Positions 183 through 10,338 of a stretch of 32,043 nucleotides of DNA are shown in pieces. Within the stretch, counting starts at the first letter, position 1. Each line of letters starts with the position of its first letter. The notes under the pieces are model-generated. The model did no database searches, had not been told where the DNA came from, and saw only the letters and a program-made list of their open reading frames with translations. Position numbers and translations under genes: made by a program. This DNA comes from Candidatus Woesearchaeota archaeon (GTDB lineage: Archaea; Nanobdellota; Nanobdellia; Woesearchaeales; SKGA01): contig JAIPJP010000012.1 of NCBI GenBank assembly GCA_021734105.1, positions 1 to 32,043 of the forward strand, read 5' to 3'.

Positions 183-932
183 ATGTTTATACGCTATTTG
201 AAGAGAAAGCACTTAATGTATATGAAAGACAATTATACTAATTATTCTTATTGGTTTTTGTCTCTTTTATTATATGGTTCTGTTGATCCTCGTTTCTTTG
301 TAATTCCGCCTAAAAAAAAGATTGCGTATTTAGTTCTTCCAAAAAATGCTTGTTCTTCAATTAAGAGTTCGTTAGTTCCTTTTGTTAAATCGAATCATTC
401 AATTCATTTTAACGATGGTTTGTCAAAAAATGTTGGAAAATTGTCTTCTGATTTTAAATCGCATTATTCGTTTACTTTTATTAGAAATCCCTTTGAGCGT
501 TTGGTTTCTTGTTATGTTAATAAATTTGAAGAATATGAACGATGGGATAAAATATTTTTATTTGAAAAGTATTATTTGTTTGGCTATTTAAAAAAGACTG
601 ATTCTTTTGCACAATTTGTTAAGAAAGTGGCTAAGTTACCTGACTTTTTATCTGATTCTCATTTTCAATCACAGTATTCTCGAATTTACAGGCGAGGTAA
701 ACTTGTAGTTGATTTTATTGGTCGTATGGAGAATTTTTCAGAAGACTTTGCTGTTCTTAAAAAGAAATTTTTGTTAGCTAATCCGCCACATATCAATAAA
801 ACAAAAAAGAAATATTCTTGGAAGGATTATTATACTCCTGAATTGGCTAGATTAGTTTATCGGAGATATAAGAAAGAATGTGATTTGTGGTATCCTGAAG
901 AATATCTTAATTTATTGCGTCACTTAAAATAG
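183..932 (+). CDS. sulfotransferase family 2-like protein
   Basis: Probable PAPS-dependent sulfotransferase, which would move a sulfo group from 3'-phosphoadenosine-5'-phosphosulfate to a glycan or other acceptor. The 249-aa product shows the 5'-phosphosulfate-binding loop as LPKNACSSIKSSL (about residues 54-66) and the 3'-phosphate-binding segment as FIRNPFERLVSCYVNKF (about 99-115), the two hallmarks of the family. Near the C-terminus, YRRYKKECDLWYPEEY resembles the usual end of family 2 members. I chose the ATG at 183 because a TATA box (154-161, TTTATATT) lies 26 nt upstream, giving a leaderless mRNA. An upstream in-frame TTG at 126 would precede the promoter. The 3' end overlaps the convergent LysRS-like gene by 9 bp. 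No signal peptide is clear. The acceptor cannot be deduced. Confidence 0.75.
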   Translation: MFIRYLKRKHLMYMKDNYTNYSYWFLSLLLYGSVDPRFFVIPPKKKIAYLVLPKNACSSIKSSLVPFVKSNHSIHFNDGLSKNVGKLSSDFKSHYSFTFIRNPFERLVSCYVNKFEEYERWDKIFLFEKYYLFGYLKKTDSFAQFVKKVAKLPDFLSDSHFQSQYSRIYRRGKLVVDFIGRMENFSEDFAVLKKKFLLANPPHINKTKKKYSWKDYYTPELARLVYRRYKKECDLWYPEEYLNLLRHLK

Positions 933-2069
933 CGGGAAATATGTTGTATCTCTAGCATCTTTTTTATTTGAAATACCTAATAATATTTTTTCAATACCTA
1001 AACTTAGTCCTGATGTGGGTGGAAGCCCGTATTTCAATGTTTCTCGACCACTCAAATCAACTTCTTCTTGCGATAGTCCTAACTCTTCTATTTGATTATT
1101 TTCGTTTATAATTATTTGATCCACGGATGTTTCTAATGAATGCCCATGCATTATTCCCATTCCATTGTAGCATATTTTGAAATCCTCTAAAAATTTTTCA
1201 TTTAGTTCTGACTTTTTTGATAAAGGAGTTAATGTATGTGGGAAATTATATATTATTGTTGGTTCTTCTAATAATGGCATTATTTTTTTGTTGAATATTC
1301 TGAAATCTTTATCTGTTCCAGTTGGCGTGTAACCATTTTGCTTTAATAGTTCTGAGAATATGCGTGTTTGAAATTTAGGCTCTTCTTCTTCAAATATTTT
1401 ATATGCAATAGAAAACAATTCTTTTCCAATATCTGCCATTTCTTTATAGTCGCTGTATTTCATAAGGATATCTACGCAAGAAAACTCAGGTAATTGTTTT
1501 TTTGATTTTCCTTCATTTCTAAATATTTTACCTATTTCAAAAACTCTTTCGAATCCGCCTATTAAAAGTTTTTTTAATTCAATTTCGCTGGTTTTCTTTA
1601 GAAATAATTCTTTTTTTGTTGATTTTTGCTCTGTTTTGAAGCTATCTGCTTTTGATGCGTAAGGCTTAGATTTTAGAATTCCTGTTTCAACTTCATCAAA
1701 ATCTTTATTCCACAGGTATTCTCTAAATCGTCTAATTACTTGGTTTCTTTTCTTAAAGAATTCGAATGATTCCGGATTGCATATTAAATCAAGATATCTG
1801 TTTGTTTGATTTTTGGGGTTTTTGAAATAATCGTTGTTTGGAAGTATAGTTTGGTTTTTATGTATTATTGAAATATTGTTGACCTTAATTCTTGACGTTT
1901 CTTCAGGAGACTTTTCTCCTTCTATTTGAACGATATCTCCCTTTTTTAAACTAAATTTATGCTTATTGTAGGTGATTTTGTAATATTTGTCTTGTGTTTG
2001 TACGAATCCGTAGCCTATTTGGCTTTTTTCCTTGCTTAGGTTAATTATTCGCCCTTTAATTTCCACCAT
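924..2069 (-). CDS. LysRS-like class II synthetase paralogue with altered substrate pocket
   Basis: A 381-aa relative of class II lysyl-tRNA synthetase, in addition to the true lysS at 8836-10338. A short OB-fold-like N-terminus (1-75) precedes a class II catalytic core. Motif 1 lies around RYLDLICNPESFEFFKKR (91-108), motif 2 is FRNEG (183-187) followed by LPEF, and motif 3 is GLSLGIEK (354-361). Two things are odd. The near-universal motif 3 arginine is lysine (K361). The lysine-binding segment, GNAYSELND in the true LysRS, reads MHGHSLET here, so the Asn, aromatic and Glu that hold lysine are His308, His310 and Leu312. It therefore probably activates something other than lysine, or ligates to a non-tRNA acceptor as EpmA/PoxA does. 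The ATG at 2069 is preferred over an in-frame TTG at 2093. It is the last gene of a four-gene operon, 26 bp after the radical SAM gene. Confidence 0.8.
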   Translation of the reverse strand: MVEIKGRIINLSKEKSQIGYGFVQTQDKYYKITYNKHKFSLKKGDIVQIEGEKSPEETSRIKVNNISIIHKNQTILPNNDYFKNPKNQTNRYLDLICNPESFEFFKKRNQVIRRFREYLWNKDFDEVETGILKSKPYASKADSFKTEQKSTKKELFLKKTSEIELKKLLIGGFERVFEIGKIFRNEGKSKKQLPEFSCVDILMKYSDYKEMADIGKELFSIAYKIFEEEEPKFQTRIFSELLKQNGYTPTGTDKDFRIFNKKIMPLLEEPTIIYNFPHTLTPLSKKSELNEKFLEDFKICYNGMGIMHGHSLETSVDQIIINENNQIEELGLSQEEVDLSGRETLKYGLPPTSGLSLGIEKILLGISNKKDARDTTYFPLF

Positions 2070-2095
2070 GTTATTACTTAGTGATAACAACAAAT

Positions 2096-2989
2096 TTATA
2101 ATGGTTTCTCTTTTTTGGCGGATTTTTTTTTATTATCTTGGATAAATTGCCCGCACCCACCATCAACATCTACTCCTTTGCTAATTTGCACATTGCTAAC
2201 GATTCCATATTTTTTTATTATTTCATTGAATTGTATTGCGTCTTCTTCACTAGGTCTTTGATATGTGCTATTTTTAATTGAATTAAATAACAATATTTGG
2301 ACATCGAAGTAATCAGGATTTAATAGTTTTGCAAATTCTTCTGCATGTTTTTTAGTATCGTTAAATCCTTTAATCAACATATAACTCATTTCAACACGTT
2401 CATTTTTTTGTTTTGCATAGTACTCGCAGGTTTCTATGAGTTTTTTTAAATGGTATTTTTTATTTATTGGAATTAGTTTATTTCTTTCTTCATCAAAAGG
2501 AGAGTGAATTGAAACAAAAAGTTTAAAATTTACTTCTTTATTATCTGCTAGTTCTTTAATTTTTGGTGTTATGCCAACGGTGGATATGGATATTGGATCG
2601 ATGTATGGTTTTGTTTTTTTTACGTCCTTGTAGAATTTGCAAATTTCTTCAAAATTCATTAGTGGTTCTCCCATTCCCATAATTGCATATGATGTTGCTT
2701 CAGGTTTATTTCTTGATGCAAGATCTTTATTTATGCTGGTTATTTGTTGTAGCATGTCTTCTGCAGTTAAATTCGCAAAAAATCCGCCTTTTCCAGTAGC
2801 GCAAAATGAACAATCCATTTGACATCCTGCTTGAGATGAAATACAAAGCGTATTGATTTCAATTGGTTTGTGTTTTCGCTGACCTATGTATGTGAAATAT
2901 ATTGATTCAACTTTAATTCCTTCTTCGTTTGAAAATATGTATTTTATACTTTTATCGACAGATTCTTTCGTTGTTACAATTTGCATCAT
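2096..2989 (-). CDS. RlmN/Cfr-like radical SAM methyl-transfer enzyme, short form
   Basis: A radical SAM protein with the CxxxCxxC cluster motif as C56-QMD-C60-SF-C63. It keeps both extra cysteines that define the RlmN/Cfr mechanism: C49 in LCISSQAGC (E. coli RlmN Cys118) and C279 in VDVDGGCGQF (Cys355, the methylated one). GMGEPLMN (about 104-111) is the family's GGE-type SAM motif. A two-SAM methylation of an RNA or similar base is therefore likely. At 297 aa it lacks about 90 residues of the N-terminal accessory domain that RlmN uses to bind rRNA and tRNA, so the substrate may differ. The tail is lysine-rich. RlmN is uncommon in archaea. The ATG follows the stop codon of the AsnRS-like gene by 1 bp, so translation is probably coupled. 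Confidence 0.82.
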   Translation of the reverse strand: MMQIVTTKESVDKSIKYIFSNEEGIKVESIYFTYIGQRKHKPIEINTLCISSQAGCQMDCSFCATGKGGFFANLTAEDMLQQITSINKDLASRNKPEATSYAIMGMGEPLMNFEEICKFYKDVKKTKPYIDPISISTVGITPKIKELADNKEVNFKLFVSIHSPFDEERNKLIPINKKYHLKKLIETCEYYAKQKNERVEMSYMLIKGFNDTKKHAEEFAKLLNPDYFDVQILLFNSIKNSTYQRPSEEDAIQFNEIIKKYGIVSNVQISKGVDVDGGCGQFIQDNKKKSAKKEKPL

Positions 2990-2990
2990 T

Positions 2991-4121
2991 TTATGGCTTT
3001 ATTGTTTTATCTACTCTTGGAAATTGACTTGCAGACCAAATGAATGGCATTTTTAATAATCCTTGAATTAATCGTTCCCATCCCATTCCGAAACCGGATG
3101 ATGGTTTGTAGTTGCTAAATTGTCTTGATTGTATATATGGTTGGTAGTCTTTCATTGGCAGATTGAATATTTTTGATTTTTCTTTTAGTTCTTCTTCGCT
3201 TTTGATTCTTTGTCCGCTTCCGAGAATTTCTCTATATCCTGGCCAAATGATGTCTAAGTTGTTTGCAATTCGAGGTTCACTACCTTCAATTGTCGCATGG
3301 TAAAATGGAACTTCTAGTAATGGAAAATCCTTTATACCTATTAGACTACCATATATTTCTGTAATTCTAATTTCTTCCCAAGAACCAAAATGTTTTAATG
3401 TGAATTCTTTGTACTTTTCATCTTGAGTATCTTTATATAACTCATCTAATGCTTCTTTTAACGTTATTATTTTCATGCTTTTTTGATTTGCAATTTCTTT
3501 TAGTTCTTCAATATCTTCATCAACCAAGAATATTTTTAAACTATCGAGATTATGAGTTACTAGGTCGTTAATTATTCGTTTAATCATTTCAAACGCTATT
3601 TGCTGGTTTTCTTCTTGATTAACTTGACCTTCGTATTCTATGTGGTGAAATTCAGATAAATGTGTTGCGTCAGCTTCTTCCTTTCTAAATGAACTATATA
3701 TTGCATACACTTGACTTATATTCTTTTGAATTAATGATAATTCTAAATATATTTGAGATGATTCTGCTAAAAATATTTTTTTATCGTGATTAAACCAATC
3801 AAGTTTAATTGGACAAGTATCTGTCGTGTAATTTATTGCTTCCTTTCCATAAACGGCTCCTGGTGATGAGATCATTCTGGTTGTTAAGGGTAATAATGTG
3901 AACATTGCTTTTAGTTCAGTAAAATATTCTGTTGTGGAAATGAATATTCTATCGTTTATCTTGGCTATGTGTTCCCAAAAAGGTTCTTCATCAAATGAAT
4001 GCACTCTGTTCTCTAATTCTGTAACACTATATTTTTTGTTTAGTATATCTTTTATTTCAGCGAATATCTTGTTTCCAACATATTTTACTTCTTTTCCGTC
4101 TGTTTTGTATGGTCTTACCAT
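2991..4121 (-). CDS. AsnRS/AspRS-like stand-alone class II synthetase core
   Basis: 376 aa resembling the catalytic core of asparaginyl/aspartyl-tRNA synthetases, without the N-terminal OB-fold that binds the anticodon. Motif 2 is FRKEEADATHLSEFHHIE (145-162), with the ATP-binding Arg146 and the TxHLxEF pattern typical of AsnRS. Motif 3 is GFGMGWER (343-350), with its arginine. SGQRI (302-306) and the ending FPRVD match AsnRS-type segments. The core looks catalytically intact, unlike the LysRS-like neighbour. Archaeal asparagine synthetase A (AS-AR) is a known OB-less AsnRS paralogue that amidates aspartate, so asparagine or another aspartyl amide synthesis is one possibility. Transfer of an activated amino acid to a peptide or small molecule is another. 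It lies 2 bp after the methyltransferase gene and 1 bp before the radical SAM gene. Confidence 0.8.
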   Translation of the reverse strand: MVRPYKTDGKEVKYVGNKIFAEIKDILNKKYSVTELENRVHSFDEEPFWEHIAKINDRIFISTTEYFTELKAMFTLLPLTTRMISSPGAVYGKEAINYTTDTCPIKLDWFNHDKKIFLAESSQIYLELSLIQKNISQVYAIYSSFRKEEADATHLSEFHHIEYEGQVNQEENQQIAFEMIKRIINDLVTHNLDSLKIFLVDEDIEELKEIANQKSMKIITLKEALDELYKDTQDEKYKEFTLKHFGSWEEIRITEIYGSLIGIKDFPLLEVPFYHATIEGSEPRIANNLDIIWPGYREILGSGQRIKSEEELKEKSKIFNLPMKDYQPYIQSRQFSNYKPSSGFGMGWERLIQGLLKMPFIWSASQFPRVDKTIKP

Positions 4122-4123
4122 TT

Positions 4124-4957
4124 TTACTTAATCTCTTTAGCTAGAAATGCTTCTGGTTCTTCTTTTTCGAATCGTTTTCTTAATATCATTATGGAAAAAT
4201 TTGTATATTTTAAGTTTTCATTGAATATTGAAATTGTTTTTTTCCATCTATTGTATATTTGATTCTGTTGTTCTTTCGAAAGATTTTTTATGTGTTCTTT
4301 TTTTAGAAAATAACTTACATACTCTTCTAGATCCGTTTCACTTAGAAATTTGAACTCGTAATCTTTTGAATAATATATTTCAAATCCTTTTTCTTCAAAC
4401 ATGTCTTTCCAATCTTTTTTAGTGTATTTTTTTATGCTTCCATTAATTTCTTTGCTTGTTGCTTCTATAATCTCATTAGGAGTTTCTTTTACGTAGAAGA
4501 TTGGACTTGTTGCTATAAAACCCCATTGTTTTACTACTCTTTTATATTCTTTTATTGCTTTTTCTTTCTCATCCATAAATGATGTTGCATTTCCACAAAA
4601 GAGTAAATCGAATGATTCGTCTTTGAAAGGAATGTCATATGCACTTGCTTCCTTGAATGTGACTAGATTGCTAATTGTCGCATCTTTGTTTTTTCTTTTA
4701 TTTGCTAATTTTATTGATTCTTTGTTGATGTCAATTCCAACTACTTGACATTTTATTGTTCTAGCAATTTCAAGACTCGAGAATCCATTTGTACATCCTA
4801 CTTCAAGGACTTTAGTTTCTTTTGAACTAAATGTATTTTTTAGTATTTCTCGAACAGTATTTTTCCCGCCTGAAGGTCGGTTTTCTTCTTTAATAAAACT
4901 AATAAAATCAGTATAACTTAAGCTTTTGATGTTGTTATTGTCTTTTTTATCTGTCAT
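4124..4957 (-). CDS. class I SAM-dependent methyltransferase
   Basis: A 277-aa methyltransferase of the UbiE/methyltransferase-11 type. Motif I is VLEVGCTNGFSS (about 51-62), followed by the acidic ribose-binding end of strand 2 in VVGIDINKES (about 73-82). A later strand, FDLLFCGNA, and the YKRVVKQWGFI segment complete the Rossmann core. The C-terminal third (from about 170) is a charged helical region of unknown function. It is the first gene of the operon that continues with the AsnRS-like, RlmN-like and LysRS-like genes. A TATA box (minus strand, 4980-4988) sits 27 nt upstream of the ATG, so the mRNA is probably leaderless. The substrate is unknown. The gene order suggests it acts with the amino-acid-activating proteins downstream. 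Confidence 0.82.
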   Translation of the reverse strand: MTDKKDNNNIKSLSYTDFISFIKEENRPSGGKNTVREILKNTFSSKETKVLEVGCTNGFSSLEIARTIKCQVVGIDINKESIKLANKRKNKDATISNLVTFKEASAYDIPFKDESFDLLFCGNATSFMDEKEKAIKEYKRVVKQWGFIATSPIFYVKETPNEIIEATSKEINGSIKKYTKKDWKDMFEEKGFEIYYSKDYEFKFLSETDLEEYVSYFLKKEHIKNLSKEQQNQIYNRWKKTISIFNENLKYTNFSIMILRKRFEKEEPEAFLAKEIK

Positions 4958-5097
4958 TATGTGTTTTAACCTTTAAATCTTTATAAGTTTGAGCTTATTT
5001 AAAAACTTAATTGGTTATGCATTCATTTGCTAAAGTAATAACTTTTTATCAAGTTCTAAAGGAAACTTATTTAAGGTAGTTTTATTTCTGCTGTTAT
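4958..5097. promoter_or_regulatory. divergent promoters of the four-gene operon and the S66 peptidase
   Basis: In 140 bp there are two archaeal TATA boxes placed for leaderless transcripts. On the minus strand, CTTATAAAG (4980-4988) is about 27 nt from the methyltransferase ATG. On the plus strand, CTTATTTAA (5066-5074) with purine-rich GGAAA just upstream is about 27 nt from the peptidase ATG at 5098. Neither gene has a Shine-Dalgarno site. Shared control of the two divergent units is possible but not shown. Confidence 0.6.
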
Positions 5098-6135
5098 ATG
5101 AAAAAACCATCAAAACTGAAAAAAGGTGATTTGATTGCTGTTGTTGCTTTATCTTGGGGAGGTCATGATCATTTTCCTCATATCGTTGACTTAGGAATTC
5201 GTCGTTTAGAAGACGAATTTGGCTTTAAAGTTAAGCGAGGAAATACTTTAAGTTTGACTGATGCTGAATTGCATGCTTCACCAGAAAAAAGAGCTGAAGA
5301 TTTACATAATCAATTTTTAGATCCTGCTGTAAAAGGAATAATTTCAATAATTGGTGGTAGTGATGGTGTTCGGGTATTACCTCATTTGAATAAAGATATT
5401 TTCATAAAGAATCCTAAGTTTTTTATGGGTTATTCAGATACTTCAGTTTTCAATATTTTTCTAAATCAGTTAGGTTTGGTAACTTTTAATGGTCCTTCTG
5501 TTATGGCTGGGTTTGCGGAATCTCATTCTTTGGAGAGTGATTTTATTGAGCATGTTGATTCATTTTTATTTGGTGAATGGGAAACATTTTCTTATGTTCC
5601 TTTTAAACGATATGTAAACAATTATTTGAGCTGGGCTGATCCTGAAAATCTAACTAAAAAAAATACTGGTTATATTGATAATGTTGAAAAATTTAATTTT
5701 GTACAGGGCGATGGCATTGTTCAAGGCACTTTATTTGGGGGTTGTATTGAGGTTTTAGAGTTTCTCAAGGGAACAACTTTTTGGCCAGATGCTAACTTTT
5801 GGAATGATAAAATTTTATTTTTTGAAACTTCTGAAGATGTGCCTTCGCCAAAATATATTGAATATTGGTTAAGGAATTATGGAATTCAAGGTGTTTTTGA
5901 TAAAATTAATGGTTTGATGTTTGGCAGACCCAAAGGATTTTCTGATGATGAGAAAATTGAATTAAAAGAAACTATTCTTAAAGTTTTAAAAGAATTTAAT
6001 AAGGCTGATTTACCTTTGATAATTAATGTTGATTTTGGTCATACTGATCCTCAAATAATTTTACCTCTTGGTGCTTTAGCGGAGATTGATTTTGGAACTT
6101 CTTCCTTGAAATTATTAGAATCTCCTTTCAAATAA
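5098..6135 (+). CDS. S66 family peptidase, MccF/LD-carboxypeptidase-like
   Basis: A serine peptidase of family S66, 345 aa. The catalytic triad is visible: Ser113 in MGYSDTS, Glu243 in FFETSED and His315 in VDFGHTDP, with spacing close to that of microcin C immunity protein MccF. The segment ETSEDVPSPKYIEYWLRNYG and the GRP at 276-278 also favour the MccF branch over murein LdcA. MccF cuts the amide bond in processed microcin C and related aminoacyl-adenylate mimics. LdcA trims peptidoglycan, which archaea lack. It is divergent from the operon holding two synthetase-like proteins. That makes a role in detoxifying or maturing an aminoacyl-nucleotide or peptide product an attractive inference. 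Transcription is probably leaderless. Confidence 0.85.
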   Translation: MKKPSKLKKGDLIAVVALSWGGHDHFPHIVDLGIRRLEDEFGFKVKRGNTLSLTDAELHASPEKRAEDLHNQFLDPAVKGIISIIGGSDGVRVLPHLNKDIFIKNPKFFMGYSDTSVFNIFLNQLGLVTFNGPSVMAGFAESHSLESDFIEHVDSFLFGEWETFSYVPFKRYVNNYLSWADPENLTKKNTGYIDNVEKFNFVQGDGIVQGTLFGGCIEVLEFLKGTTFWPDANFWNDKILFFETSEDVPSPKYIEYWLRNYGIQGVFDKINGLMFGRPKGFSDDEKIELKETILKVLKEFNKADLPLIINVDFGHTDPQIILPLGALAEIDFGTSSLKLLESPFK

Positions 6136-6330
6136 TAAATCAACTTATTTTTTTTATTTTTTTTGACCTCTTTTATATTGTCGAGGGCAAGTGATATTTG
6201 TATTGCGTATGCTCTTTGTTATTGAAATGATTGTTTGTAACTGCTTCTAGGTGTGAGTTATAATTAAGCTTTATTCTTATTTTAGGATAATTTCGCATCT
6301 ACCTTTATAAACCACTCTCCCTTCTACCCT

Positions 6331-6431
6331 TCTTAGAGAATCTTTAGAATTAGGGGTTTTTACCTTGAGAGGGGCTTACTGCGAAGATTATCGCCTTGGG
6401 CGGTTTCTCGGAGGGGACTTATTTTCTTTTT
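6331..6431 (+). ncRNA. candidate structured small RNA with its own promoter
   Basis: The 316-bp gap between two convergent genes (6136-6451) contains a plus-strand TATA box (CTTTATAAA, 6303-6311) that has no gene to serve. About 25 nt later a GC-richer stretch begins in AT-rich surroundings. CCTTGAGA (6363-6370) pairs with TCTC-G-GAGG (6406-6414) with one bulged G and one U-G pair. Inside, GCGA (6381-6384) pairs with TCGC (6391-6394) around a 6-nt loop. A T-rich run (6418-6431) could terminate the RNA. I could not assign it to a known family: no C/D boxes and no clear ACA box. The rest of the gap (6136-6300) shows only T-rich sequence. Confidence 0.45.
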
Positions 6432-6451
6432 AGAAAATTTTTGTAAAAGGA

Positions 6452-7462
6452 TTAATTCGCTTTTATTTGTTCTAATTCTTTTACCGCGGCATCAATATTA
6501 TCACTACATATTTCTGCAATATACTTTTGCTCTGTTAATGCATGTTTGTATTGTTTATCGTAATGCTCTATAAGAAGTGCTTCTGCAAGCTGCTTGTATT
6601 TCTTTTCATCAACAAGTGCACATAATTCTTCGCAGCGTTTAGTACTTAAATAAACTTTGAGCTTCATAATGATTTTTTTGATTTCTTCATCTTCATTATG
6701 GGTGAAATAATCTTGCACTATTCGTTTGCTTCGTGTTGTTATGCTTGCAGTAATATTGACTGTTGGTGCTGTTTGCATGGTTTCATATATTTTTTCTGGG
6801 ACAAAAATATCGCCAATTTTTTTTGCTTCTCCTTCAATAAAAACTATTTTCTCGCTTTCTAACTCGTGAAGTTTTTTCCAGAGTCTACTTTCAAACATTT
6901 TTTGACTTACTGGTTTTAATCCTAATGCGCCAAAGAGCGAACTTCTATGATGTGCGTATCCTTCTAAATTTATTGTAGGAAATAACTTTTTGATTAAATC
7001 TGTTTTTCCACATCCTGCAAGTCCTTGCAAAACAATGAATGTAAATGGAGGCTCGTAATTTTTTAACTCTTCACGTACTACTGCTCGAAATTGTTTATAT
7101 CCGCCGATAAGTTGGTAGACGTTTGTTCGTTTTGACGCAATAAGTTCTGCTATTGTTTTTGAGCGCATTCCTCCTCGCCAACAATAAATAATTATTTTTT
7201 TCTCAAGAGGTATTTGTTTAAATTGTTCAATAAAATCTAGAATTTTACTATTATAAATACCAAATCCTTGCTGATATGCCTCTACTTGATTGTTCTTGTA
7301 AAGCGTTCCAATTATTGCTCGTTCTTCATTAGAAAAAATAGGAATGTTAATTGCTCCGGGGATATTATCTTCAGCAAATTCTTTTGGACTGCGAGTATCC
7401 ACAAAAACAACATCTTCACTAGGTAATTTTAGAGCTTCAGTAATTTCTATTGTGTTAACCAT
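6452..7462 (-). CDS. mnmH: tRNA 2-selenouridine/geranyl-2-thiouridine synthase
   Basis: MnmH (SelU, YbbB) converts 2-thiouridine at the tRNA wobble position to 2-selenouridine through a geranylated intermediate, using selenophosphate. The 336-aa protein has an N-terminal rhodanese domain with the active-site cysteine at C94 in IYCWRGGMRS, then a P-loop (GLAGCGKT, 147-154) in the C-terminal half. This is the full one-chain bacterial arrangement, whereas methanogen SelU is known as two separate proteins, so acquisition from bacteria is plausible. No selD is visible here. A TATA box (minus strand, 7488-7496) is about 30 nt upstream of the ATG, leaving a leader of only a few nucleotides. If SelD is absent, the enzyme may stop at geranylation. 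Confidence 0.9.
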   Translation of the reverse strand: MVNTIEITEALKLPSEDVVFVDTRSPKEFAEDNIPGAINIPIFSNEERAIIGTLYKNNQVEAYQQGFGIYNSKILDFIEQFKQIPLEKKIIIYCWRGGMRSKTIAELIASKRTNVYQLIGGYKQFRAVVREELKNYEPPFTFIVLQGLAGCGKTDLIKKLFPTINLEGYAHHRSSLFGALGLKPVSQKMFESRLWKKLHELESEKIVFIEGEAKKIGDIFVPEKIYETMQTAPTVNITASITTRSKRIVQDYFTHNEDEEIKKIIMKLKVYLSTKRCEELCALVDEKKYKQLAEALLIEHYDKQYKHALTEQKYIAEICSDNIDAAVKELEQIKAN

Positions 7463-7513
7463 TCAGAACTTCTCTATCTGTGCTTTATTTATAAAATCTT
7501 GTGCTAATAGGTC

Positions 7514-7548
7514 TTCTAGAGCCTCCAAACAATCCATATTTATAAATT
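7514..7548 (+). promoter_or_regulatory. lipoprotein gene promoter with 17-nt upstream element
   Basis: TTCTAGAGCCTCCAAAC (7514-7530), then 5 nt, then ATATTTATAAATT (7536-7548). The same 17-mer, spacing and 13-nt TATA region recur at 8780-8814 before lysS. The TATA centre is 25 nt from the ATG at 7568, so the mRNA is leaderless. Confidence 0.7.
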
Positions 7549-7567
7549 ATTTTGACTTTAAATTAGT

Positions 7568-8776
7568 ATGATTCGTCTTTTATTTGTTTTATTTGTACCA
7601 CTCTTGCTTTTCACTTCTTGTGATTTAAACTATGAATCTGAATATCAAACAGAGCTTTTTTTCATTCATTCAGAGTCAAGAATTGGTGCTTTAGGTGAAG
7701 TTTTCATGAACAATGTTAGTTTAGGTTTTCTTGAAGATGGTTTGTTGACAGTTCCTTCTACAAATCTTGATTTGGGCGTTATACGATTAGAAACTTTTTT
7801 CAGAGGAGATAATTACTCATTCGAGTATATTGTGGATGAAGATTATTCAGTTTATGATTCTGTGGAATTTGAATTTTCAAATAATGACATGTCTGATTAT
7901 TTAGATCAAAAAGAGATTGAACAAAAAATAAATACAAAATCAAATTTATTTAATTATTCTCTTGGAGATTCTATAACTAGAAATTTTTCGTTTTGTAGAA
8001 CTGGTGTAGTTGGAACGCGAGAGCGACTCACTTTGGATGTTTATTCGGATTTAGATTCGTACTTATTTTCATTGGAACGATTGATTTATTACGATTCTGA
8101 TGATTCCCCTCCAACGGAGAGAGATTTTCTTTTCAAAACGATTGATGAGCCTAATCAATTGGTTGAAGTGAAAGTTCTTGCTGAAAAGATTAAATTATTA
8201 TCTAATGACTCCCAAGAGCAAGCAAGAATTGCAATAACTTTAGTACAAATGATTCCCTATGATAATTATGCAATAGAAACTTTTGAAACCCATGTAGAAC
8301 GTTATCCTTATGAAGTTTTATTTGATTATACAGGTATTTGCGGCGAGAAATCAGAACTTATTGTGATGTTACTAAGGGAGTTAGGTTTTGGTTCAGCATA
8401 TATAATTTTCCCAGAAGAGAATCATGCTATTGCAGGAATATCTTGTCCTAAGGAATTTAGTTTTAGAACTTCTGGTTATTGTTTTGTTGAATCAACTGAA
8501 AGTACTCAAATAGGTCAAAGTGATGGAAACTATGTGGATGTTGGAAGATTAGAATCTATTCCAATAATAATTCCTGTTTCTGAAGGAAAATCTTATACTG
8601 ATATTGTTCAGTTCTATCAAGAAGCTATTAAAGGTCTTGAAGAAGGAACTCATTCAAAAATTAGAGATAAGTATGGAAATGAAATTATTCGAGCGAGTGG
8701 TGATTATTGGACAAAATTAAATAATCCTGATTTTTATGTTACTTATGGCGATAATCGTTATGAAATCTTAATTTAA
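7568..8776 (+). CDS. secreted lipoprotein with transglutaminase-like domain
   Basis: 402 aa. The N-terminus MIRLLFVLFVPLLLFTSC is a short lipoprotein signal with the lipobox cysteine at C18, so the protein is probably anchored outside the membrane. Residues about 215-320 resemble the transglutaminase/cysteine-protease fold: Cys258 in GICGEKSELIVMLLRELG and His286 in ENHAIAGI have the right spacing for the Cys-His pair, and an acidic third residue may lie in CFVESTES. Residues 20-200 match nothing I recognise and look beta-rich and acidic. Such domains in archaea are often proteases or act on cell-surface proteins, but the substrate is unknown. It shares a promoter element with the downstream lysS but has its own start, and lysS follows after 59 bp. 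Confidence 0.7.
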   Translation: MIRLLFVLFVPLLLFTSCDLNYESEYQTELFFIHSESRIGALGEVFMNNVSLGFLEDGLLTVPSTNLDLGVIRLETFFRGDNYSFEYIVDEDYSVYDSVEFEFSNNDMSDYLDQKEIEQKINTKSNLFNYSLGDSITRNFSFCRTGVVGTRERLTLDVYSDLDSYLFSLERLIYYDSDDSPPTERDFLFKTIDEPNQLVEVKVLAEKIKLLSNDSQEQARIAITLVQMIPYDNYAIETFETHVERYPYEVLFDYTGICGEKSELIVMLLRELGFGSAYIIFPEENHAIAGISCPKEFSFRTSGYCFVESTESTQIGQSDGNYVDVGRLESIPIIIPVSEGKSYTDIVQFYQEAIKGLEEGTHSKIRDKYGNEIIRASGDYWTKLNNPDFYVTYGDNRYEILI

Positions 8777-8779
8777 ACT

Positions 8780-8814
8780 TTCTAGAGCCTCCAAACCCCC
8801 AATATTTATAAATT
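8780..8814 (+). promoter_or_regulatory. lysS promoter with the same 17-nt upstream element
   Basis: TTCTAGAGCCTCCAAAC (8780-8796), 5 nt, then ATATTTATAAATT (8802-8814), identical in motif and spacing to 7514-7548. The TATA centre is about 28 nt upstream of the lysS ATG at 8836. Confidence 0.7.
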
Positions 8815-8835
8815 CAATCCTCTTTTGCAAGTGTT

Positions 8836-10338
8836 ATGGTAGAAGAAAATAGACTTAAAGAGGAACGAGTCAGAAAACTTAATGAGCTTCGGCAGGCTGG
8901 CGTTGAGCCGTATCCGCATCTTTTCAAACCTGGTAAGAAGTCCGCTCAAATTAAAGAAGAACATAAAGACCTCGCTCCTGAATCTAAAACCTCTGCCAAA
9001 GAGAAAGTAGCTGGCCGTGTTGTGCTTCTTCGAAACATGGGGAAAGCAACTTTTCTCACACTGCAAGATGGTGAAGGGAGAATTCAAGCGTACATTCGAA
9101 AAGATGATGTTGGTGAAGAAAATTATTTCATCATAAAAAAACTTGACTTGGGTGATATTTTAGGAATTGAGGGTGATGTCTTCACCACTAAAACTGGCGA
9201 GATTAGTGTTTATGCTAAAGCTGTTACGCTTTTGTGTAAAGCAATCGAATCTCTTCCTGAAAAACATCATGGTCTAAAGGACACTGAACTCAAATATAGA
9301 AAGCGTCATCTTGATTTAATTACTAATCCTGAAAGTAAAGAAGTTTTCGTCAAACGATTAAAAATTATGCAGGCTATTCGGGAGTTTATGATACAGCGTG
9401 GTTTTTTAGAAGTGGAAACGCCAATTCTCCAAACACAATATGGTGGGGCTGCTGCAAAACCTTTTATGACGCATCACAATGAATTAGATATGGATATGTA
9501 TCTTCGAATTAGTCCTGAGTTATATCTTAAAAAACTCATCGTTGGTGGTTTTGAGAAAGTTTTTGATATTAACAAAAATTTTCGAAATGAAGGTATTGAC
9601 ACAACGCATAATCCAGAGTTCACTATGCTTGAAGCATATCAAGCGTATGCTGATTATAATGACATGATGGATTTAATGGAGTCTATGTATGAATTTGTTG
9701 CAAAGAAAGTTTTAGGAACAACAAAAGTGACTTTCAAGGGCAAAGAAGTTGATGTTGCTAAACCTTGGGCTCGAGTTCCTATGCTTGACGCAATTAAAGA
9801 ACATGCAGGTATTGATGCGAGCACTGCATCAGTTGATGATCTTCAAGATGTTATCGATAAAAATCTTATTGATTTTGAAAAAGAGAAGAATTGGGGTAAT
9901 ATGGTCTTAGCTATTTTTGAGCATTTCTGCGAAGACAAATATATTAATCCGACATTTATTACACATTATCCTCGAGAATCAACACCGCTTTGTAAAAAAT
10001 TACGTGAAGGAGATGAGCGGCTTATTGAGCAGTTCGAGCCTTTATGTATGGGTGTTGAGTTAGGTAATGCTTATAGTGAATTAAATGATCCTGTTGAGCA
10101 ACGAAGACTTTTTGAAGATCAGCAGCGACAATTGAATGCTGGTGATGAAGAAGCTAATCCTCTTGATGAAAGTTTTCTCCATGCAATTGAAACTGGTATG
10201 CCGCCAACTGGTGGTATTGGTATTGGTATTGATAGAATGATTATGATTTTGCTCGGCCAAGAATCCATCAGGGACATTATTTTCTTTCCAACTATGAAGC
10301 CAGAAGTTGAAGAGAAAGAAAAAGAGAAGAAGGAATAA
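8836..10338 (+). CDS. lysS: lysyl-tRNA synthetase, class II
   Basis: Charges tRNA-Lys with lysine. It is a full-length 500-aa class II enzyme. An N-terminal OB-fold anticodon-binding domain (about 55-155; VAGRVVLLRNMGKATFLTLQDGEG) is followed by motif 1 (RYRKRHLDLITNPESKEVF region in variant form), motif 2 (FRNEGIDTTHNPEFTMLEAY) and motif 3 (GIGIGIDRMIMILLG). The lysine-binding signature GNAYSELND is intact. Many archaea use the unrelated class I LysRS, so the class II form here is a bacterial- or eukaryote-like trait. The C-terminal end is a lysine/glutamate-rich tail. Transcription is probably leaderless or nearly so. A T-run directly after the stop may terminate it. The convergent gene ends 5 bp away. 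Confidence 0.97.
   Translation: MVEENRLKEERVRKLNELRQAGVEPYPHLFKPGKKSAQIKEEHKDLAPESKTSAKEKVAGRVVLLRNMGKATFLTLQDGEGRIQAYIRKDDVGEENYFIIKKLDLGDILGIEGDVFTTKTGEISVYAKAVTLLCKAIESLPEKHHGLKDTELKYRKRHLDLITNPESKEVFVKRLKIMQAIREFMIQRGFLEVETPILQTQYGGAAAKPFMTHHNELDMDMYLRISPELYLKKLIVGGFEKVFDINKNFRNEGIDTTHNPEFTMLEAYQAYADYNDMMDLMESMYEFVAKKVLGTTKVTFKGKEVDVAKPWARVPMLDAIKEHAGIDASTASVDDLQDVIDKNLIDFEKEKNWGNMVLAIFEHFCEDKYINPTFITHYPRESTPLCKKLREGDERLIEQFEPLCMGVELGNAYSELNDPVEQRRLFEDQQRQLNAGDEEANPLDESFLHAIETGMPPTGGIGIGIDRMIMILLGQESIRDIIFFPTMKPEVEEKEKEKKE

Follow-up and report, generated by a model that had tools for sequence, protein, structure and literature searches.

A stretch of DNA of 32,043 nucleotides from a Candidatus Woesearchaeota archaeon, hereafter called the window, carries four tightly packed minus-strand genes and a divergently transcribed peptidase gene, which together probably encode the synthesis of, and the immunity against, a nucleotide antibiotic related to agrocin 84 and microcin C. 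All five genes were found at the following positions, given here together with the region between the two transcription units and with a nearby lysyl-tRNA synthetase (LysRS) gene:

924-2093, minus strand: LysL, a divergent paralogue of LysRS with the OB-fold kept
2096-2989, minus strand: radical S-adenosylmethionine (SAM) methyl synthase of the RlmN/Cfr family without the N-terminal RNA-binding domain
2991-4121, minus strand: AsnL, a catalytic domain derived from asparaginyl-tRNA synthetase (AsnRS) that lacks the anticodon-binding domain; AgnA is its sister clade
4124-4957, minus strand: MccD-like SAM-dependent enzyme with a methyltransferase fold
4958-5097: divergent promoter region of 140 bp, in which, as seen by eye, each ATG is preceded at ~25 bp by a TATA-like stretch
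5098-6135, plus strand: MccF-like peptidase of family S66 with Ser113/Glu243/His315 and Trp179
8836-10338, plus strand: ordinary class II LysRS, outside the cluster and listed as context

The intergenic gaps in the minus-strand operon were 2, 1 and 2 bp, the last one widening to 26 bp if LysL starts at a downstream ATG (M9). This layout, including gaps of 1-26 bp and the 140-bp region shared with the S66 gene, had been described in the original prediction and was confirmed. Homologies, recurrent co-location, the clade of AsnL and AgnA, the variability of the second synthetase and the extra full-length synthetases were computed here; the reactions and the product are inferred from homology.

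AsnL scored 145 bits against AsnRS, for which the NCBIfam cut-off is 414. The Pfam and NCBIfam profiles matched its catalytic domain only (130-145 bits, cut-offs 343-414) and revealed no N-terminal anticodon-binding domain of AsnRS. In an alignment of 23 AsnL members, the Phe-Arg and Glu of motif 2 and the Gly and Arg of motif 3 were invariant. A tblastn search of plasmids with AsnL retrieved AgnA of pAgK84, described as a truncated AsnRS with a role in agrocin biosynthesis (PMC4392301), and further AgnA-like matches on plasmids of Xenorhabdus, Exiguobacterium, Peribacillus, Pantoea and Streptomyces. AsnL and the AgnA-like proteins formed one clade, with support of 100/99 in a 50-row tree and 100/97 in a 24-row tree, and have residues in common that are missing in AsnRS, e.g. 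P(L/V/I)TTxx(I/V)(S/T)SP. The archaeal asparagine synthetase (AS-AR) formed a clade apart from them, and the approximately unbiased (AU) test rejected both a grouping of AsnL with AsnRS (p 0.014) and a grouping of AgnA with AS-AR (p 0.013), although branches were long in these trees. The structure model of AsnL (predicted local distance difference test, pLDDT, 85) matched AsnRS with Asn-adenylate best and adds little beyond the sequence. No relatives of AsnL were found in the viral contigs searched.

The SAM-dependent enzyme encoded next to AsnL has relatives in the agrocin 84 and microcin C systems. It scored 166-211 bits against the AgnA-linked enzymes but at most 25 bits against the two other methyltransferases of pAgK84 that were compared, and a direct comparison with MccD gave an E value of 1e-26 over 256 residues. 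After the AgnA-linked enzymes, the next plasmid matches lay mostly beside a GNAT gene, and one such region that was opened (L123, the small plasmid unnamed_2 of E. coli ATCC 25922, a control strain in common laboratory use; loci are numbered with the letter L throughout) was a full mcc operon with ThiF, MFS, SAM enzyme, GNAT and S66. MccD acts together with MccE in the aminopropylation of the microcin C phosphate (PMC10491745).

The likeness of the S66 peptidase to MccF, which had been proposed from the spacing of Ser113/Glu243/His315, held up: these residues as well as Trp179 aligned with the S66 proteins of the clusters, and a direct comparison with MccF gave an E value of 6e-27. The nearest solved relative was Ba3275 of B. 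anthracis. An S66 gene lay within 6 kb of AsnL at 13 of 25 loci, with 0.035 expected from the density of S66 genes in the relatives. Hydrolases of other types known from microcin C immunity were also seen at AsnL loci. HIT proteins, to which the microcin C immunity enzyme MccH belongs (PMC7157772), adjoined the AsnL clusters of L043 and L086, and that of L031 has an S51 peptidase beside it; since HIT genes are common, some HIT neighbours may be there by chance. MccF and the S51 peptidase MccG cleave the carboxamide bond and MccH cleaves the P-N bond, and immunity peptidases such as MccG are also encoded by standalone genes (PMC9239234). A second S66 gene of the window genome is located outside the cluster (G000:C10:31877-32236).

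A genome scan with AsnL yielded 24 loci with proteins 40-69% identical, assigned by record title to Woesearchaeota, Pacearchaeota, Nanoarchaeota, Micrarchaeota, Marsarchaeota, Aenigmatarchaeota, haloarchaea (Natrinema, Halomicroarcula) and a few presumably bacterial metagenome-assembled genomes (MAGs). The distribution was patchy: of the 371 genomes in the window's phylum, 11 encode AsnL, the window genome included. Exactly the five genes of the window were found in another archaeal MAG (L034) but in a different order; thus, of the conservation in relatives on which the original prediction had staked itself, the gene set was borne out and the gene order was not. An automatic count placed the MccD-like enzyme at 13 of the 25 AsnL loci, to which L050 adds one; L036, L038, L039 and L086 encode a different methyltransferase.

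The second synthetase varied from cluster to cluster. It was LysRS-like in the window, L034 and L035; ProRS-like (ProL) in L031, L032, L036, L037, L039, L042, L045, L052, L053 and L086; AlaRS-like in L079 and the bacterial L057 and L060; AspRS-like in L038; and a LeuRS in L047, L048 and L053. Motif 2 of the ProL proteins no longer contains its Glu. AsnL of the window and AsnL of L031 were sisters in the tree (100/99); since the second synthetase of L031 is ProRS-like, the module has changed between close relatives. Several clusters contained a full-length synthetase in addition to the paralogue. L039 and L086 encode an INS-less ProRS beside ProL, and both genomes have a further ProRS-class gene at another site; an AlaRS stood beside the AlaRS-like protein in the AgnA-like clusters of Exiguobacterium (L057) and Peribacillus (L060), whose product would most simply be an alanyl-adenylate mimic; and an AspRS, which may be the housekeeping copy, stood beside the AspRS-like protein in L038. 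Two Natrinema genomes encode another LeuRS besides that of the cluster. Their loci (L047, L048, ~2038-10042) comprise genes for an MccD-like enzyme, LeuRS, AsnL, a DrrA-type ABC exporter and S66, and belong to culturable haloarchaea. By analogy, the extra full-length synthetases look like AgnB2, that is, like a self-resistant target. A simple one-to-one match of full-length copy and divergent paralogue is broken by L053 and by L056, the latter with a LeuRS and a ProL-like protein.

No such self-resistant full-length copy was seen in the window genome, where one full LysRS, an ordinary one, was found. This gene (8836-10338), which the original prediction had not mentioned, is located ~3 kb from the cluster and is the sole full LysRS found in the 97%-complete genome; for this reason, and because relatives have 73%-identical counterparts, it was rejected as an immunity copy. 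A comparison with G001 and G003 around LysRS revealed no counterpart of the other genes of the window, only weak matches to synthetase paralogues, and no empty site could be read. LysL itself scored 215 bits against LysRS (NCBIfam cut-off 468), and its OB-fold is shortened but kept. Residues matching E278, Y280, E421 and E428 in the numbering of E. coli LysU, which bind lysine in LysRS, were replaced, and the Arg of motif 3 was changed to Lys; the LysL of L034 retains E278, Y280, E428 and the motif-3 Arg. Since the pocket of the window LysL is changed, lysine is doubtful as the amino acid of the product. The structure model of LysL was unusable (mean pLDDT 50).

The radical SAM enzyme contains the CxxxCxxC motif and both catalytic cysteines of the rRNA methyltransferases RlmN and Cfr but, unlike these, no N-terminal HhH RNA-binding domain: the profile match began at position 70 of 355 and its score of 262 bits was below the curated RlmN cut-off of 290. 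It is the only RlmN of the genome, and strong RlmN matches were present in few of 59 relatives. RlmN-like proteins ~35% identical to that of the window were seen in other DPANN genomes (L113-L122), some apparently without the HhH domain and none near AsnL. RlmN was rejected as a marker of the system, as most DPANN RlmN-like proteins do not lie near AsnL. The comparison of LysL and this enzyme with EpmA and EpmB, suggested in the original prediction, was abandoned: LysL reached 99 of the 287 bits that the EpmA cut-off demands, and its radical SAM neighbour is of the RlmN type and not an aminomutase. The likening of AsnL to AS-AR fell likewise, AsnL being grouped with AgnA, away from the archaeal asparagine synthetase. 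The broader idea of a pathway in which amino acids are activated and attached to a nucleotide, peptide or protein, with methylations and a peptidase for immunity or maturation, stood as far as activation to an aminoacyl-nucleotide, SAM-dependent tailoring and MccF-like immunity are concerned. The statement that no described system has this set had to be given up, since agrocin 84 (agnA, the adjacent SAM enzyme gene, agnC5) and microcin C (MccD, MccF) share the core.

Among the agrocin 84 genes (agn) on pAgK84 of Rhizobium rhizogenes K84, the one immediately after agnA encodes a homologue of the window SAM enzyme; AgnA itself is the sister clade of AsnL, and the plasmid also encodes the MccF-like AgnC5. 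Unlike the window, this bacterial system has neither a LysRS-like nor an RlmN-like gene, contains agnC genes for a non-amino-acid acyl group and confers immunity by a full-length LeuRS, AgnB2, whose role in self-immunity was demonstrated (PMC5059758). The product of the microcin C cluster (mccABCDEF) belongs to the N-acyl phosphoramidate nucleotides, as would that proposed for the window cluster, and the two clusters have MccD-like and MccF-like proteins in common. MccE is absent from the window, and MccB, a ThiF protein, is absent from the cluster, two ThiF proteins being encoded elsewhere in the genome; AsnL probably takes the role of MccB. A short precursor peptide of the microcin C type, ending in Asn, was not recognised in the 140-bp spacer, which was glanced at without a systematic search. 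Related decarboxylases adjoined AsnL in L033 and L049, that of L033 falling into the Pfam family PF02784, which also includes the N-terminal domain of MccE.

A third relative is a locus on a plasmid of Streptomyces sp. NBC_01707 (L059, 7908-16050). Genes for an AgnA-like protein, an MccD-like enzyme, S66 and a divergent paralogue of a class II synthetase are common to it and the window, but in L059 this paralogue resembles ProRS, and the place of the RlmN-like enzyme is taken by a molybdopterin hydroxylase. In L059 and in L045, the hydroxylase adjoins ProL, the AsnL or AgnA gene, the MccD-like gene and S66. Phosmidosine contains proline, 8-oxoadenine and a methylated phosphoramidate; the gene set of L059 and L045 would fit this structure, making L059 a candidate phosmidosine cluster. 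The RlmN-like enzyme of the window and L034 would then occupy the base-tailoring slot held by the hydroxylase in L059 and L045, a role that rests on one independent recurrence (~0.5% by chance).

Taken together, we consider it likely, judging from the sequences, that the operon and the divergent S66 gene form a biosynthesis-and-immunity cluster for an N-acyl phosphoramidate nucleotide antibiotic, an aminoacyl-adenylate mimic related to agrocin 84 and microcin C. LysL, or the other cluster-specific synthetase paralogues in the relatives, would activate an amino acid, and AsnL, in the place of MccB, would join its carboxamide to adenosine monophosphate (AMP) by a stable N-acyl phosphoramidate bond. 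The MccD-like enzyme would alkylate the phosphate oxygen of the phosphoramidate, and the RlmN-like enzyme would C-methylate the adenine at C2 or C8. Product acting inside the producer would be hydrolysed by the S66 peptidase at the acyl-N bond, giving self-immunity. Going further, and with less confidence than doubt, we suggest that archaeal nucleotide antibiotics may form a modular family. An AgnA-like P-N synthetase, an MccD-like enzyme alkylating the phosphate and an MccF-like enzyme for immunity would be its conserved core. Two kinds of exchangeable parts would join this core: synthetase paralogues, which would decide on the amino acid and thereby on the target, and purine-tailoring enzymes. 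In the window product, the adenine would be C-methylated by a radical SAM enzyme of the RlmN type acting on a small molecule. The kind of system is known from agrocin 84 and microcin C; the archaeal host and the gene combinations are provisionally regarded as new, since no description of archaeal agrocin-like clusters was found in the literature searched, whose coverage was incomplete for agrocin and Trojan-horse work.

Several observations weigh against the proposed antibiotic cluster. LysL, having lost the acids of the pocket and the motif-3 Arg, may be degenerate or use another substrate. The RlmN-like gene was found at only two of the 25 AsnL loci (the window and L034), and similar proteins are encoded in a further 10 DPANN genomes, all of them outside the set with AsnL. 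No exporter was visible within the window, and no archaeal member has a known product or activity. To our knowledge, agrocin 84 has no alkylated phosphate, and therefore the MccD-like step may differ.

Among the other explanations, a peptidyl-nucleotide as in microcin C, with a short peptide that escaped annotation being modified by AsnL at its C-terminus and given a further residue or group by LysL, agrees with the presence of MccD and MccF homologues, and microcin C precursors are short enough to be missed by annotation. The missing ThiF/MccB gene argues against it, as do the second synthetase paralogues, which point to free amino acids, and agrocin 84, whose AgnA is the closest characterised relative and which is not peptide-derived; we regard it as unlikely. 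Similarly improbable is that LysL and AsnL aminoacylate a protein, lipid or RNA, and that the RlmN-like enzyme methylates RNA, the cluster serving the modification of a macromolecule or the making of a cofactor or signal. RlmN and Cfr do act on RNA, RlmN-like proteins exist in DPANN genomes without AsnL, and proteins are modified by EpmA-type paralogues, but AsnL groups with an antibiotic synthetase, hydrolases of the MccF, MccH and MccG types and extra full-length synthetases recur, and the distribution is patchy.

If AsnL and LysL were spare synthetases resistant to an antibiotic of another organism and S66 a resistance peptidase, the locus would be a resistance island without synthesis. Full-length resistant synthetases (AgnB2, PMC5059758) and standalone immunity peptidase genes (MccG, PMC9239234) are precedents, but AsnL has no anticodon-binding domain and groups with AgnA, LysL has no lysine-pocket residues and no motif-3 Arg, and it is not evident what the MccD-like and RlmN-like genes would do in resistance, which makes this explanation very improbable. 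That S66 is an unrelated LD-carboxypeptidase beside an unrelated operon could be argued from its opposite strand and from Ba3275 as its nearest solved relative; the frequency of S66 genes near AsnL (13 loci versus 0.035 expected) and the repetition of the same five genes in L034 leave hardly any room for it.

As to the surroundings, a sulfotransferase-family protein is encoded at 126-932 on the plus strand, convergent with LysL and overlapping its end by 9 bp. At 6452-7462 on the minus strand lies a gene for a bacterial-type MnmH (tRNA 2-selenouridine synthase), above the NCBIfam equivalog cut-offs, in an archaeal genome. Among the relatives, an Lrp/AsnC-like regulator adjoined AsnL, usually divergently, in L033, L035, L053, L086 and L088, and a DUF34/NIF3 protein is encoded directly downstream of AsnL in L086 (8215-9123).

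If the proposed antibiotic cluster is real, the logic of agrocin 84 and microcin C, in which a stable aminoacyl-adenylate mimic poisons a tRNA synthetase, would extend to archaea, among them DPANN symbionts and culturable haloarchaea. A common core of the MccD/MccF type would link agrocin with microcin C and probably with phosmidosine, and the cluster paralogue with its frequent full-length companion would hint at the amino acid and the target, leading to testable predictions for new translation inhibitors. For enzymology, the question arises of how an enzyme with the fold of AsnRS could form a P-N bond.

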